Assembly: GCF_026191725.2 (NCBI RefSeq)
Contig: NZ_CP120863.1
Span: forward strand, 3,266,001 to 3,330,000
Origin: Roseibium porphyridii
Lineage (GTDB): Bacteria; Pseudomonadota; Alphaproteobacteria; Rhizobiales; Stappiaceae
Length of the DNA stretch: 64,000 nucleotides
Direction: 5' to 3'
A program made the translations under genes and the position numbers. Shown piece after piece: positions 1 through 4,666 of this stretch (its first letter is position 1; each line of letters opens with the position of its first letter). The notes beneath the pieces are model-generated. The model saw only the letters and a program-made list of their open reading frames with translations. It did not search any database and was not told where the DNA came from.

Positions 1-312
1 GCTGAAACGCTTGGGGCATCCGTCTGGCAGATGGTGACACGGTTGGTTTTGCCTCAGGTCTTGCCAAAACTCATCACGGCATTGCGATTGGGGCTGGTGC
101 CTGCCTGGATTTTTCTGATTTCGGCTGAGGCGATCGCGTCGACCACTGGGCTCGGATACCGGATTTTTCTCGTCCGAAGATATCTGGCGATGGATGTGAT
201 CCTCCCTTATGTGGTGTGGATCACTCTGTTGGCATTTTTGCTCGACCGCTTGCTTCTTTTGCTTTCTCGACGCGCTTTTCGCTGGAACCATCTCGGGAGC
301 GAAGCGCTATGA
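1..312 (+). CDS. ABC transporter permease, NitT/TauT type (5' end outside window)
   Basis: This is the C-terminal part of an inner-membrane permease; the frame is open from base 1, so the gene begins to the left of the window. About 103 residues are visible. They contain the cytoplasmic EAA-type loop (A-E-T-L-G-A-S ... LPQVLPKL, residues 2-24 of the fragment), followed by two to three hydrophobic segments and a short basic tail. The stop overlaps the start of the ATPase gene (ATGA), so the two are translationally coupled. The NitT/TauT assignment rests on the EAA loop and the partner ATPase. The substrate is inferred from the downstream enzyme to be guanidine or a related small cation. The substrate-binding protein should lie outside the window. 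Confidence 0.85.
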   Translation, partial: AETLGASVWQMVTRLVLPQVLPKLITALRLGLVPAWIFLISAEAIASTTGLGYRIFLVRRYLAMDVILPYVVWITLLAFLLDRLLLLLSRRAFRWNHLGSEAL

Positions 313-1154
313 GCACGGTCACCACGCCCAAGCTGTCGGTACAGGGACTTACCAAATCATATGACGGGACACCTGTGCTGGAACGGGTCGACCTTCTGGT
401 CGAAGACGGATCTTTCTGCACGATCGTTGGCGCATCAGGCTGCGGTAAATCTACGTTCTTGCGCATGCTGTTGTCGCAGGAGCTGCCGACACGCGGCCAA
501 ATTCTCCTTGATGGTGAACCCCTCCCCGATGAACCAACGCCGGACAGGGGTATCGTATTCCAAAAGTATTCGGTGTTTTCCCATCTTACCGTTGCGGAGA
601 ACCTTATCCTAGCCGCGGAATTCGCGGCTGCTCCGTTGTCAGGTCGGCTTTTCGGAAAATCCCGTCGTCAAGCGATGGGTGACATAGATGAAATTCTGGA
701 CCGAATTGGCCTGAAAGCAGCGGCAGACCGCTACCCCGTGCAGTTGTCGGGAGGGATGCAGCAACGGTTGGCAATAGCGCAGGCGCTGATCAAGAAGCCC
801 AACATCTTGTTGCTTGATGAACCCTTCGGCGCCCTGGATCCAGGCATTCGCGTCGACATGCACGAGTTGCTTTTGGGTCTTTGGAAAGACCTTGGCATGA
901 CCATCTTCATGGTCACGCACGACATCCATGAAGCCTTCAAACTTGGCACTCGTCTGCTGGTATTCGACAAGGTTCGCCACGACCCGCAGGCCCCGGACGC
1001 CTATGGGGCAACCATCACTTACGACCTGCCTTTGTCATCGCCGAATTCTTCGCCGGAAAAACTGCCGGAAGATATCGCAGGTGCGATCCGTCGACCGGAA
1101 AAACAACCATTTCCCAATGCCCAACTACCCAAAATACACGAGGAACGCTCATGA
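309..1154 (+). CDS. ABC transporter ATP-binding protein, NitT/TauT type
   Basis: This is the energising subunit of the importer whose permease lies immediately upstream. The 281-residue protein has a Walker A motif (GASGCGKST, residues 41-49), Q-loop Gln85, the signature LSGGMQQ (146-152), Walker B (NILLLDEP, 165-172) and the H-loop His204. About 60 C-terminal residues extend beyond the nucleotide-binding domain. The ATG at 309 was chosen over an upstream in-frame ATG at 216 because it overlaps the permease stop as ATGA and begins right before the domain. Its own stop overlaps the next gene's ATG in the same way. An ATPase of this class accompanies the guanidine hydrolase gene in Synechocystis (known gene order), which supports guanidine uptake, but the sequence alone does not prove it. 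Confidence 0.9.
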   Translation: MSTVTTPKLSVQGLTKSYDGTPVLERVDLLVEDGSFCTIVGASGCGKSTFLRMLLSQELPTRGQILLDGEPLPDEPTPDRGIVFQKYSVFSHLTVAENLILAAEFAAAPLSGRLFGKSRRQAMGDIDEILDRIGLKAAADRYPVQLSGGMQQRLAIAQALIKKPNILLLDEPFGALDPGIRVDMHELLLGLWKDLGMTIFMVTHDIHEAFKLGTRLLVFDKVRHDPQAPDAYGATITYDLPLSSPNSSPEKLPEDIAGAIRRPEKQPFPNAQLPKIHEERS

Positions 1155-2389
1155 GCCTGTTTGATCGATCTGTCCCGGCAACACTGCAAAGAGCAGCTGG
1201 TCTGGTCCGGCGAGACCCCACGACAAGGCAACACCATCCGGACTTCGACAAGCTTCAGTTGCGTGGTTGGAAGGCCGCGGAAAAAGAAGGCGCTTTGCCA
1301 AGCGCAGCCTGGGAGAAAGAAAAGGCGTGGGCTCTCAGAATGGGGTTGACTGGATCTGACAGCCTTACCGACAAATCCATTCCAACCTTTGCACGTGGTG
1401 AATTGCCCCACTATGCGGGCATCAATACGTTCCTCAAAGCGCCCTATATCGAAGACGTCACGAAAGTTGGCGCGTATGATGCTGCCGTCATTGGTATTCC
1501 GTTTGATGGTGGGACGACTTATCGCCCGGGCACCCGTTTCGGGCCTCAAGGTGTGCGCCGGATTTCGGCACTCTACACGCCCTACAACTATGAAATGGGT
1601 GTTGACCTCCGCGAACAGATGACGCTTTGCGATGTCGGCGACATTTTCACCATACCTGCAAATATCGAAAAAACGTTCGACCAGATAACGCGGGCCGTTT
1701 CACATGTGGCGTCTTCTGGCGCTTTGCCAATCATGATCGGCGGTGATCATTCCATCGGTTTCCCGTGTGTTCGCGGCATTGCGCAATGTACCTCCAAACG
1801 TATCGGTATCGTTCATTTCGATCGACATATAGATATTCAGGAAAAAGACCTCGACGAGCGCATGCACACAACGCCGTGGTTCCATGCGACGGATCTGGTG
1901 AATGTTCCGGCGGTCAATCTCGTTCAGATCGGCATTGGTGGCTGGCAGGTGCCGCGCGAAGGGGTGGAGGTTGCCCGCGAGCGCAATACCAACATTTTCA
2001 CGATGCGTGACGTTGAAGAACTTGGTCTGGCCGAAACAGCGGCACGTGCCCTGGAGTTGGCCTGGAAAGATGCCGATGCCGTTTACATCTCCTTCGACAT
2101 CGACAGTGTCGACTGCGGTTTCGTGCCTGGTACGGGTTGGCCTGAACCGGGCGGCTTCCTGCCCCGTGAAGCGCTTGAACTTGTGTCTCTAGTCGCCAAA
2201 GAAGGTATCTGCGGCCTAGAAGTCGTCGAAGTGTCACCGCCTTACGACTGTTCAGATATCACCGCACTGCTCGCAACACGCGTGATCGTCGATGTTCTCG
2301 GAACATTGGTTTCACATGGCAAAATGGGCTCTCACCGGTCGATCATAGACAAACCCGTGTCCATCCCCGCTGGCCCGGAAGTGGAGTAA
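1151..2389 (+). CDS. gdmH: Ureohydrolase (arginase/agmatinase fold), probable guanidine hydrolase
   Basis: The likely reaction is hydrolysis of guanidine to urea and ammonia in the cytoplasm. The 412-residue protein carries all six canonical metal ligands of ureohydrolases: His200 (GGDHS), Asp224, His226 and Asp228 (FDRHID), and Asp316 and Asp318 (FDID). Agmatinases usually have D-A-H-x-D; this protein has D-R-H-x-D followed by QEKDLDERMHTTPW, and later GTGWPEPGG and VEVSPPYD. It also has an N-terminal extension of about 90 residues before the catalytic core. From memory these traits match the nickel-dependent guanidine hydrolase GdmH (Synechocystis Sll1077) rather than agmatinase or arginase. 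The gene sits between an ABC importer and a His-rich protein, which fits a nickel enzyme. Alternatives are agmatinase, guanidinopropionase or guanidinobutyrase. The ATGA overlap with the ATPase gene fixes the start. Confidence 0.78.
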   Translation: MSLFDRSVPATLQRAAGLVRRDPTTRQHHPDFDKLQLRGWKAAEKEGALPSAAWEKEKAWALRMGLTGSDSLTDKSIPTFARGELPHYAGINTFLKAPYIEDVTKVGAYDAAVIGIPFDGGTTYRPGTRFGPQGVRRISALYTPYNYEMGVDLREQMTLCDVGDIFTIPANIEKTFDQITRAVSHVASSGALPIMIGGDHSIGFPCVRGIAQCTSKRIGIVHFDRHIDIQEKDLDERMHTTPWFHATDLVNVPAVNLVQIGIGGWQVPREGVEVARERNTNIFTMRDVEELGLAETAARALELAWKDADAVYISFDIDSVDCGFVPGTGWPEPGGFLPREALELVSLVAKEGICGLEVVEVSPPYDCSDITALLATRVIVDVLGTLVSHGKMGSHRSIIDKPVSIPAGPEVE

Positions 2390-2393
2390 CCGC

Positions 2394-2864
2394 ATGAGTT
2401 CAGATCACGCCCATTCTCATCATCATGACCACGACCATGCGCATGCCCACATGCATGGACACAATCTTGGCGGTCACGATCATCTTCATTCGCATGTTCA
2501 CGGTATTTCCGACGCGGACAAAGTCGATGAAATGCAGGCGCTTAGCTCAAGTTTCATTGACGGGTTCCGCTCTGCGGAAGACAAGACAAGCTACCTTCGT
2601 CTTGCAGGCATTTCGTTTCACAGACCGGGTGCTGACGGACTGGTGCAGCACCTCGTTGACGCGAAAATTGAAAGCAACTGGCAGATCGGGACGGCCTCAC
2701 CTGCCTTCGCATCCCGTGAGTTGGCCTATATGCCTTTTCCCGGTTCCATGGTGCAGGCAAGAGAGACGATGACTTTCACGTATGTATCGCTAACCGAGCG
2801 CTCGGATGTCGACCTAATCGAAGTTTTGACTGACCGCCTTAAGCAAGGAGATATTGCTGAATGA
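2394..2864 (+). CDS. His-rich putative metal-binding accessory protein
   Basis: I do not recognise the family. The 156-residue protein opens with an extremely His-rich stretch: 16 of the first 36 residues are His, in H-x-H and HHH patterns mixed with Asp. A soluble domain of about 115 residues without obvious catalytic motifs follows. There is no signal peptide, so it should be cytoplasmic. His-rich segments of this kind store or deliver Ni or Zn in proteins such as HypB, UreE and SlyD. Here the gene starts 4 bases after the ureohydrolase stop and overlaps the next gene (ATGA). I infer that it loads metal, probably nickel, into the ureohydrolase, taking the place of the HypA/HypB-like helpers found next to GdmH in cyanobacteria. 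It shows no HypA zinc-finger cysteines and no HypB GTPase P-loop. Confidence 0.8.
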   Translation: MSSDHAHSHHHDHDHAHAHMHGHNLGGHDHLHSHVHGISDADKVDEMQALSSSFIDGFRSAEDKTSYLRLAGISFHRPGADGLVQHLVDAKIESNWQIGTASPAFASRELAYMPFPGSMVQARETMTFTYVSLTERSDVDLIEVLTDRLKQGDIAE

Positions 2865-3070
2865 AGCACCTACTGACTGCACTAATTTACAGCCTGCTCG
2901 CGTCTTCCGCGTTTGCGCATCCCGGTTCGCACAACGATGTCCATGGAATGAGCGGTTTTGTCCGCCACTTCCTGGACTCACCCTTCCATATTGCATTGCT
3001 TGCCGGTGCCGTTCTTTCGGTGTTTGCCGTCGTGCTATACTTGTTCTTCGCTCGCAAACCTCAGGTTTGA
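2861..3070 (+). CDS. Small secreted/membrane His-containing protein with a HupE-like N-terminus
   Basis: A 69-residue protein. Residues 1-19 form a Sec signal ending in SAFA, which would give a mature N-terminus HPGSHNDVHG. One transmembrane segment follows (about residues 42-63), with a short basic tail (ARKPQV). The mature N-terminus resembles the start of HupE/UreJ-type nickel permeases (HPG-x-H ... G ... GF), but the rest of such a permease is missing. It is the last gene of the operon and overlaps the His-rich gene as ATGA. A role in periplasmic metal binding or nickel uptake for the ureohydrolase is inferred. Coupling and the clear signal peptide argue that it is real despite its size. 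Confidence 0.65.
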   Translation: MKHLLTALIYSLLASSAFAHPGSHNDVHGMSGFVRHFLDSPFHIALLAGAVLSVFAVVLYLFFARKPQV

Positions 3071-3111
3071 AAAATATGCCGCCGACACTTCGTTTAGGTG
3101 ACCGGCGGCAT
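3071..3111. terminator. Probable terminator between the ureohydrolase operon and the EAL gene
   Basis: An inverted repeat ATGCCGCCG (3076-3084) / CGGCGGCAT (3103-3111) lies between convergent genes. On the minus strand the stem is followed by an A/T-rich run containing five T (complement of 3071-3075), so it best fits termination of the EAL gene. On the plus strand the T-run is poor. Confidence 0.5.
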
Positions 3112-3145: not shown

Positions 3146-4666
3146 TTAAACGCTCGCGAGTTCTTCCGCTCGAGCACGTGAAAAAAACAGTGTGATCAGT
3201 TGATCGATATCCATTGGGCCGCTGAACAGGTAGCCTTGGCCATGATCACAACCCAGTTCGACAAGTGCGTCGAGGCGTTCTACTGTTTCGACCCCCTCTA
3301 TTACCGTGTTGCTCTTCATATTGGCGATCAAGCTTAGGGCAGCAAGAAGTGTTTCAGCATGTCTTTCATTGTTGAATGCACGATCCACATAGCGCGCGTC
3401 GATCTTGATTTCATCCCACTCGAATTCAGTCAAATGGCGTAATGCGGCGAATTTTGAACCAAAGTCGTCCAACGAAACGGCGATACCACATTCTTGGATT
3501 TCGGAAAGTGACCGCCAAACACTGTCCAGTTTTGTAGGCAGTTGCGTCTCGGAAAATTCGATCTTCAAACGGTGTGCCTCAATGCCTGCATCTGTGAGGC
3601 ACTCAAGCATCATTTCGGGCAGACCTTCGTTCAGGATCTGAGACAATGTGAGGTTTACGGACAACGTCAAATCAGCAGGCAATCTTTGCAGTTGCATGCA
3701 AGATTTTTCAAGAATAATGCGACCCAGCCTGATGATATCTCCAGTGCTTTCAGCCGCTGAAATGAATTCTGAAGGGCTGATCCAACCCAGTTCATTGTGT
3801 TGCCACCTTGCAAGTGCTTCGACGCCAATGATCTTGCCAGTCTTTAGATTGAACTGAGGTTGGAAATGAGGAATGAAATCGTGGTTTTCGAAGGCGTTTG
3901 ATAAAGACGAATGGATCTTTTCCCGACGCTGGTATTTCGCCTGCATCGCAGGTGTGAATAGGGAAACTCGGGACTGTTTTTTCACAAAAGCATTTTCAAG
4001 CGCCAATTCCGCATTCTTGAGTATGAGTTCAGGCCTCCAATCGACGGGGTCGGCAATTGCCACTCCAATCGCAAGATTTGTTCTGAAAGATCCTGAACCG
4101 GTCAAGAGCGGTTGGCGAAAAAGATCTGATATTTGCTTTGCGATCTCCATCGCAGCTTGCTCTTGGTTTTCGGCAAGAGCGACGCCGAGCACGAAGTCGT
4201 TTCCCTTCAAGCGCGCAACAAGGGTTTCAAGATCAGCCCCAAGAGCATAGTGGTGAAGCAGCTCTGTAGCGGTGGCCAGGATGGAGTCTTCCACCTGTCT
4301 CTTCGCAACCAGAATTTCTGTGTTCGCGGCTTCAAACCTCAACCTGAAGACAGCAAGGGTCTCGACCGCATTCGACCGACACTCGGCCATCTTAACTAGT
4401 CGTATGAACTGTTGACGGTTCAGCAGTCCGAAGTTCTGGTCGCTGGTATTGAGCGGGCTTGGGCGATCAGATGGTCTCTCCAGCGTCCCTCTGGTATCGC
4501 GGAAACGATTGTTCTTGGTTTGGGCGAACAATAACAGGCAAAGAACAACCAAACACAGAACAAGTACGAGATAAGTCGACGAGGTGGCCACTAAACTGGC
4601 CAAAAACGATAGCAGTGCAACAACAAGGCACAGCCAAGTGCCCCAACGTTCCAAAAAAGCAAACAT
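3146..4666 (-). CDS. Membrane-anchored GGDEF/EAL protein, probable c-di-GMP phosphodiesterase
   Basis: A 506-residue protein with two N-terminal membrane helices (about 11-28 and 31-48), a GGDEF-like domain (about 80-240) and an EAL domain (about 250-500). The EAL domain keeps the key residues: E-A-L at 283-285, DDFG at 400-403, Lys421, EGVE near 457-460 and the final QGYLFSGP. It should therefore hydrolyse cyclic di-GMP. The GGDEF signature is replaced by KGNDF (154-158), so no cyclase activity is expected; such domains often bind GTP or act as regulators. The gene stands alone between convergent and divergent neighbours. No periplasmic sensor domain is visible between the two short helices. 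Confidence 0.92.
   Translation of the reverse strand: MFAFLERWGTWLCLVVALLSFLASLVATSSTYLVLVLCLVVLCLLLFAQTKNNRFRDTRGTLERPSDRPSPLNTSDQNFGLLNRQQFIRLVKMAECRSNAVETLAVFRLRFEAANTEILVAKRQVEDSILATATELLHHYALGADLETLVARLKGNDFVLGVALAENQEQAAMEIAKQISDLFRQPLLTGSGSFRTNLAIGVAIADPVDWRPELILKNAELALENAFVKKQSRVSLFTPAMQAKYQRREKIHSSLSNAFENHDFIPHFQPQFNLKTGKIIGVEALARWQHNELGWISPSEFISAAESTGDIIRLGRIILEKSCMQLQRLPADLTLSVNLTLSQILNEGLPEMMLECLTDAGIEAHRLKIEFSETQLPTKLDSVWRSLSEIQECGIAVSLDDFGSKFAALRHLTEFEWDEIKIDARYVDRAFNNERHAETLLAALSLIANMKSNTVIEGVETVERLDALVELGCDHGQGYLFSGPMDIDQLITLFFSRARAEELASV

Follow-up and report, generated by a model that had tools for sequence, protein, structure and literature searches.

The putative guanidine operon of Roseibium porphyridii encodes a histidine-rich protein that may supply nickel to GdmH in place of GhaA and GhaB

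In Synechocystis sp. PCC 6803, the guanidine hydrolase GdmH (Sll1077) is encoded in an operon with a guanidine-I riboswitch and a NitT/TauT-type ATP-binding cassette (ABC) importer (PMC8390497, PMC10094980). Its gene is co-transcribed with ghaA and ghaB (PMC10094980), and the HypA/HypB-like products of these two genes are needed for GdmH activation (PMC11271267). More generally, gdmH operons often include hypA and hypB (PMC8390497), and the same applies to picocyanobacteria (PMC10119275). The guanidinase of the comammox bacterium Nitrospira inopinata is likewise under riboswitch control but differs in its transporter, an APC permease, and has no adjoining ghaA or ghaB; its authors report that no nickel chaperone was found and call the mechanism of nickel loading unclear (PMC11410670). 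In Aminobacter and Pseudomonas, metformin hydrolase operons also combine a nickel-dependent ureohydrolase with adjoining nickel-handling genes (PMC11399263, PMC11271267), but there these are hypA/hypB homologues and hupE, and the enzyme is heteromeric and acts on another substrate. Here, we describe an operon of Roseibium porphyridii whose 3′ part occupies positions 1-3070 of a 64,000-nucleotide stretch of contig NZ_CP120863.1 (the window). It shares with Synechocystis the riboswitch class, the importer type and a GdmH with the same specificity residues, and its GdmH falls into the same clade as the N. inopinata enzyme, again with the same residues. Instead of ghaA and ghaB, however, it carries genes for a histidine-rich (His-rich) protein from a different family as well as for a small membrane protein. 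The operon almost certainly serves guanidine uptake and hydrolysis, and we propose that the His-rich protein is probably the dedicated nickel metallochaperone of GdmH, acting in place of GhaA and GhaB.

The operon runs from the riboswitch through the genes for the binding protein, the permease, the ATPase, GdmH, the His-rich protein and the small membrane protein. Coordinates without prefix refer to the window (C1:3266001-3330000), those with C1 to the contig and those with L002 to DNA fetched from before the window:

C1:3264123-3264240, ending 1.8 kb upstream of the window: guanidine-I riboswitch (RF00442), 65.9 bits against a gathering cut-off of 63, full-length match (1-107)
C1:3264352 (likely ATG) to 3265419, equal to L002:12352-13419, upstream of the window: binding protein gene, TIGR03427 at 564.5 bits against a cut-off of 333.9
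1..312, + strand: 3′ part of the NitT/TauT-type ABC permease gene, with BPD_transp_1 and TauC-like matches that miss the equivalog cut-offs; full gene C1:3265446-3266312, its first 555 bases upstream of the window
309..1154, + strand: importer ABC ATPase (NtrD/TauB/SsuB-like), ATGA-coupled to the permease
1151..2389, + strand: gdmH, 412 amino acids, ureohydrolase superfamily, putative nickel-type guanidine hydrolase, ATGA-coupled to the ATPase
2394..2864, + strand: His-rich protein (HISR), 156 amino acids, gene start 4 bases past the gdmH stop
2861..3070, + strand: small membrane protein, 69 amino acids, ATGA-coupled to the His-rich gene
3076..3111, + strand: stable hairpin right after the last gene, -21 kcal/mol, z -3.32, none of 200 shuffles as stable

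An initial annotation, made from the window alone, had placed the permease end, the ATPase and the arginase-fold open reading frame (ORF) with their ATGA overlaps as listed, had likened the importer to the NitT/TauT-type partner of gdmH in Synechocystis, and had pointed upstream for a guanidine riboswitch and a binding protein. All of this held, and both upstream elements are present. Its picture of a guanidine uptake and degradation operon around a GdmH-like enzyme also stood but was silent on the two genes downstream of gdmH, and the likeness to Synechocystis extends to the importer but not to ghaA and ghaB, which the operon lacks. The model TIGR03427 is named 'putative urea ABC transporter substrate-binding protein'. 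Since a guanidine-I riboswitch heads the operon, we read its binding protein as probably a guanidine binder, and the urea label may therefore mislead.

By sequence, the arginase-fold protein is a GdmH-type guanidinase and adds one more member to that known family. The Pfam Arginase domain (PF00491; 259.2 bits, cut-off 22) begins only at residue 110, so the N-terminus is extended. The six metal ligands (H200, D224, H226, D228, D316 and D318) are all present, as are the D-R-H-x-D motif (D224-R225-H226-I227-D228) and the segments EKDLDERMHTTPW and GTGWPEPGG, the features from which a GdmH-like identity had initially been suggested. A sequence search of the PDB returned 7esr/7oi1 (544.2 bits) and 9fek (529.8 bits), followed by proclavaminate amidinohydrolase at 176.7 bits; 7OI1 is Synechocystis GdmH and 9FEK the N. 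inopinata guanidinase (PMC11410670). The same paper defines guanidinases by Thr105, His222 and Trp313 (N. inopinata numbering) and likewise marks Glu344 (PMC11410670). We mapped these by hand on the PDB-search alignments and then checked the letters in the window protein: every guanidine-specificity residue is kept (T123, H239, W330 and E360). In a 28-row tree, 22 GdmH-type rows, including both characterised guanidinases, separated from agmatinase, GbuA, GpuA and three paralogues from the same genome (support 99/99), with the caveat that the outgroup rows are long branches, as the tool warned. Placement in the agmatinase or guanidinobutyrase clade, which would have spoken against a GdmH, was thus not seen. 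The protein is predicted to hydrolyse guanidine, putatively with nickel as its metal.

Such proteins are indeed filed as agmatinases, as had been suspected: among the 120 best relatives listed from the protein database, those that bear a name go by proclavaminate amidinohydrolase, agmatinase or agmatinase family protein. Over residues 1-412 the window GdmH is 100% identical to a Labrenzia sp. THAF82 protein, which agrees with an alphaproteobacterial host of Roseibium/Labrenzia type. Could the enzyme act mainly on another guanidino compound, such as agmatine or guanidinobutyrate, with the operon serving that compound? The agmatinase name and the urea label of TIGR03427 would fit, and the riboswitch scores merely 2.9 bits over its cut-off. 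Against this stand the separate clade, the signature residues and the guanidine-I aptamer, which passed the Rfam cut-off in 12 of 14 further loci bearing the His-rich gene (exceptions L032 and L063), with at least 76 bits in 10 of the 14. The genome also encodes separate agmatinase- and GbuA/GpuA-like paralogues. We regard this alternative as highly improbable, and an agmatinase or guanidinobutyrase identity as such is rejected by the PDB scores, the signature residues and the tree.

To see how far this arrangement extends, we turned to the genome collection, in which 581 gdmH relatives were confirmed, and fetched the best 80 of them, which are nearest kin and no random draw. A His-rich homologue lay downstream of gdmH in all 80 (BLASTP E 8e-14 or better), separated, with gene starts set by script, by -14 to +33 bases in 78 of them, by 75 in L039 and by 221 in L059. 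The binding protein gene was present in 77 and absent from L035 (contig end), L063 and L065; L063 also had no aptamer over the cut-off and only weak ABC matches. L035 is a contig of an Anaerolineae metagenome-assembled genome with an alphaproteobacterial-type gdmH and His-rich gene, which points to misbinning or transfer.

Two drawn samples, of 397 genomes from the phylum and 337 from the class, give a fairer test of linkage than these nearest-kin loci (thresholds in the phylum sample: E 1e-100 for gdmH and E 1e-5 for the His-rich gene). In the phylum sample, gdmH was found in 10 genomes, every one of them alphaproteobacterial, and exactly these carry the His-rich gene. In the class sample, 12 genomes had gdmH, 13 the His-rich gene and 11 both. 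Fisher tests gave 4e-20 and 7e-18 for the two samples with relatedness ignored. The two genomes of the class sample with the His-rich gene only (G309 and G107) hold broken remnants. In G309, the His-rich core directly adjoins a fragment of the binding protein gene, on a short contig where an assembly fault is possible (L094:8245-8894). What is left in G107, after a stop, is the C-terminal portion of the core alone (L093:7103-7360). These are decayed guanidine operons in which a His-rich piece has outlived gdmH.

The linkage was also visible in the GdmH tree: the 15 rows whose loci have the His-rich partner group together (100/99), and the rows without it, five in number, lie outside this clade. 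Among loci without the partner, a guanidine-I aptamer was found only in L095 (1 of 5). That locus, on a Rubrobacter indicoceani plasmid (L095:5840-7194), has the riboswitch directly before gdmH, followed by a sodium:solute symporter, formamidase and urease genes, and within 13 kb it has no His-rich partner and no annotated HypA or HypB. Eleven plasmid records with gdmH were found and five of them opened; on a Limimaricola plasmid, the His-rich partner and the small gene are both present, each annotated as hypothetical.

In the His-rich protein, an N-terminal tail rich in His (about residues 1-38) is followed by a core predicted to be of alpha/beta type (about 40-152). Across the 80 members, whose ORF starts were chosen by script and whose tail was counted to position 45 in window-protein numbering, His makes up 34.9% of the tail and 1.8% of the core. 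At least six His are found in the tails of 77 members; the exceptions are L067 with a C-terminal run, L035 with four His and L088 with none given the chosen start. The run can thus sit at the C-terminus instead of the N-terminus (L067:8154-8558) or at both ends (L022). In the core, D63, P103 and P116 are invariant in 80/80, and R123, Y112 and Y130 are nearly so. A His-rich tail on a folded core is an architecture shared with UreE, HypB and other His-tailed nickel proteins.

By sequence, the protein belongs to none of the HypA, HypB and UreE families. The family had no match above cut-off in Pfam, NCBIfam or PDB, and fold comparison of the core (Foldseek, VIA-align) returned nothing convincing, which is no proof of a new fold. 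The HypA domain (PF01155) matched neither the window protein nor figured in the families matched by 46 members; the family profile reached a probability of 0.8% against the HypA of the same genome, and the window protein is cysteine-free. Regarding a P-loop GTPase (PF02492, TIGR00073), there was no PF02492 match and no P-loop was seen in the 156 residues, while a HypB prefix model was touched by a single member at E 0.14 only. There was no Pfam UreE match; two NCBIfam UreE models were touched by one member each (E 0.19 and 0.59), and against the genome's own UreE profile the aligned part was limited to 13 His-tail columns. Weak library matches to ZrgA (6/46, best E 0.017), the PRK10019 nickel/cobalt efflux model (9/46, E 0.0025) and DmeF (5/46, E 0.0096) resemble matches of His runs and were rejected. 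A literature search, with subscription papers and supplements outside its reach, returned no description of the His-rich gene. We therefore consider the protein, provisionally, an undescribed partner of GdmH.

We also searched 50 of the 80 genomes for HypA and HypB; most are drafts, and named isolates were preferred. HypA passed the cut-off in 21, and these were also the genomes in which HypB did; neither was detected in the other 29, among them G363, whose locus (L053) sits in a complete-chromosome record. In the class sample, HypA passed the cut-off in 24 of 337 genomes overall and in 4 of the 11 that have gdmH together with the His-rich gene (one of the four a partial match, G106). A tblastn search of the 80 loci with the HypA and HypB of R. 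porphyridii found no HypA, and the single HypB match coincided with a UreG gene (L077). Neither protein is encoded in the 18.5-kb stretch around the R. porphyridii operon.

From these observations, we propose the following sequence of events. Guanidine would bind the guanidine-I riboswitch and thereby allow transcription of the operon; the binding protein, permease and ATPase would import it, and GdmH would hydrolyse it to urea and ammonium, after which the urease encoded elsewhere in the genome would finish the breakdown of urea. The His-rich protein, co-translated after GdmH, would act as the dedicated nickel metallochaperone that replaces GhaA/GhaB. The tail and the linkage are suggestive of such a role: Ni(II) would be bound by the tail and passed to GdmH on docking of the conserved core. 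Taken as a whole, from uptake through hydrolysis to the chaperone, this is the explanation we favour with some confidence. A further step is more tentative: the protein may represent a new kind of nickel metallochaperone that works without a GTPase and serves a single ureohydrolase. Its core fold would be undescribed and its His tail movable, it would replace HypA/HypB in alphaproteobacterial guanidine use, and the small protein with its exposed A-H-P-G-x-H end would form the outer portion of the relay that carries the nickel.

Several observations weigh against a dedicated chaperone. His-rich tails are also borne by storage and efflux proteins, the core shows no conserved set of His/Cys ligands among the 80 members, and the tail itself is missing in L088 and has only four His in L035. 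The genome does have HypA and HypB, at C1:281-282 kb; because the adjoining ORFs look like hypD, hypE and hoxX, which we presume them to be from recognition by eye, these appear to be hydrogenase maturation genes. Some gdmH genes, in other phyla too, lack the partner: it was absent within 6 kb at two Rubrobacter, one Nonomuraea and one Embleya locus, and the alphaproteobacterium G064 has gdmH with no His-rich gene nearby. The GdmH of G064 is divergent (58-61% identity), and HypA was undetected in that genome. The G064 gene is followed by ORFs resembling glutamine-amidotransferase/glutamate-synthase-type (Glx) subunits, with no riboswitch over the cut-off (L092:7028-12305). Finally, the N. inopinata guanidinase was active and partly loaded, with 0.42 Ni per subunit, when E. 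coli produced it with no chaperone co-expressed (PMC11410670), so a dedicated chaperone may not be strictly needed, and the chaperones of metformin hydrolase are non-essential in vitro, yet required for growth (PMC11271267).

Such findings leave some room for a His-rich protein that buffers or stores nickel, much as Hpn does, and thereby limits its toxicity or evens out its supply; GdmH would then be loaded chaperone-free or through the urease system (UreG/UreE). The partial loading of the N. inopinata enzyme without a co-expressed chaperone agrees with this (PMC11410670). So does the urease cluster that R. porphyridii encodes elsewhere in its genome, and UreE and UreG are encoded on the contig that bears the tail-less homologue of L088. 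Moreover, all 50 genomes searched match the HypB model at E <=0.001, with the 29 below the cut-off scoring about 60-90 bits, presumably owing to UreG. A general store, however, needs neither a conserved core nor linkage to gdmH, and the invariant positions show the core to be conserved like the tail, while the gene is tied to gdmH and not to urease or hydrogenase. We therefore disfavour a store and consider a buffering role unlikely.

The conserved core raises a different question, namely whether it takes part in guanidine metabolism itself, as an enzyme or a binding protein (acting, for instance, on a guanidine derivative), with the His tail secondary. There is precedent in MgdL, a riboswitch-controlled 'hypothetical protein' beside guanidine genes that proved to be a lyase (PMC12508155), and the core has the invariant D63 and the nearly invariant R123, Y112 and Y130. 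Retention of the His run in 77/80 members, with a place at either end possible, nevertheless fits metal handling, and neither the sequence nor the fold libraries gave an enzyme match above cut-off, although a missing match excludes nothing. An enzymatic core thus seems quite improbable to us, and we retain the dedicated nickel metallochaperone as the preferred reading of the His-rich protein.

The last gene of the operon encodes a protein with a signal-peptide-like start, the sequence AHPGSHNDVHG (A-H-P-G-x-H) after the presumed cleavage site and one membrane segment. A strict rule, which misses some cases, identified similar ORFs in at least 33 of the 80 loci, with ATGA coupling in 30; gdmH loci do not generally include the small protein. 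The nickel permease HupE has a similar N-terminal His region, and the small protein is perhaps nickel-related; an outer nickel site on it is a guess. Assignment to DUF6732 or DUF1206 was rejected, as matches stayed below cut-off (DUF6732 in 4 of 7 homologues, E 0.056-0.51), and the true DUF6732 gene of the genome is located elsewhere, away from the fetched urease stretch. The hairpin downstream, which is not followed by a T run, may mark the 3′ end of the transcript. Beyond it, a GGDEF/EAL-type signalling ORF recognised by eye (3146-4666, - strand) is convergent with the operon. Upstream of the riboswitch lies a molybdenum hydroxylase-type cluster, also recognised by eye (L002:3874-11571; xanthine/CO dehydrogenase-like subunits, a MoxR-like ATPase, a VWA protein and an XdhC-like protein), which seems unrelated to the guanidine operon.

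Where GhaA and GhaB are missing, the supply of nickel to GdmH is, for N. inopinata, described as unclear (PMC11410670), and the operon provides a testable candidate for it: a single small gene that goes together with gdmH in the Alphaproteobacteria samples and occurs in genomes mostly without detectable HypA/HypB. If the proposal is true, the gene would offer a simple route to active guanidinase in other hosts, for guanidine removal or for ideas of slow-release nitrogen. In rhizobia and marine alphaproteobacteria, proteins now labelled 'putative urea transporter' or 'agmatinase family protein' could then be reassigned to guanidine use.

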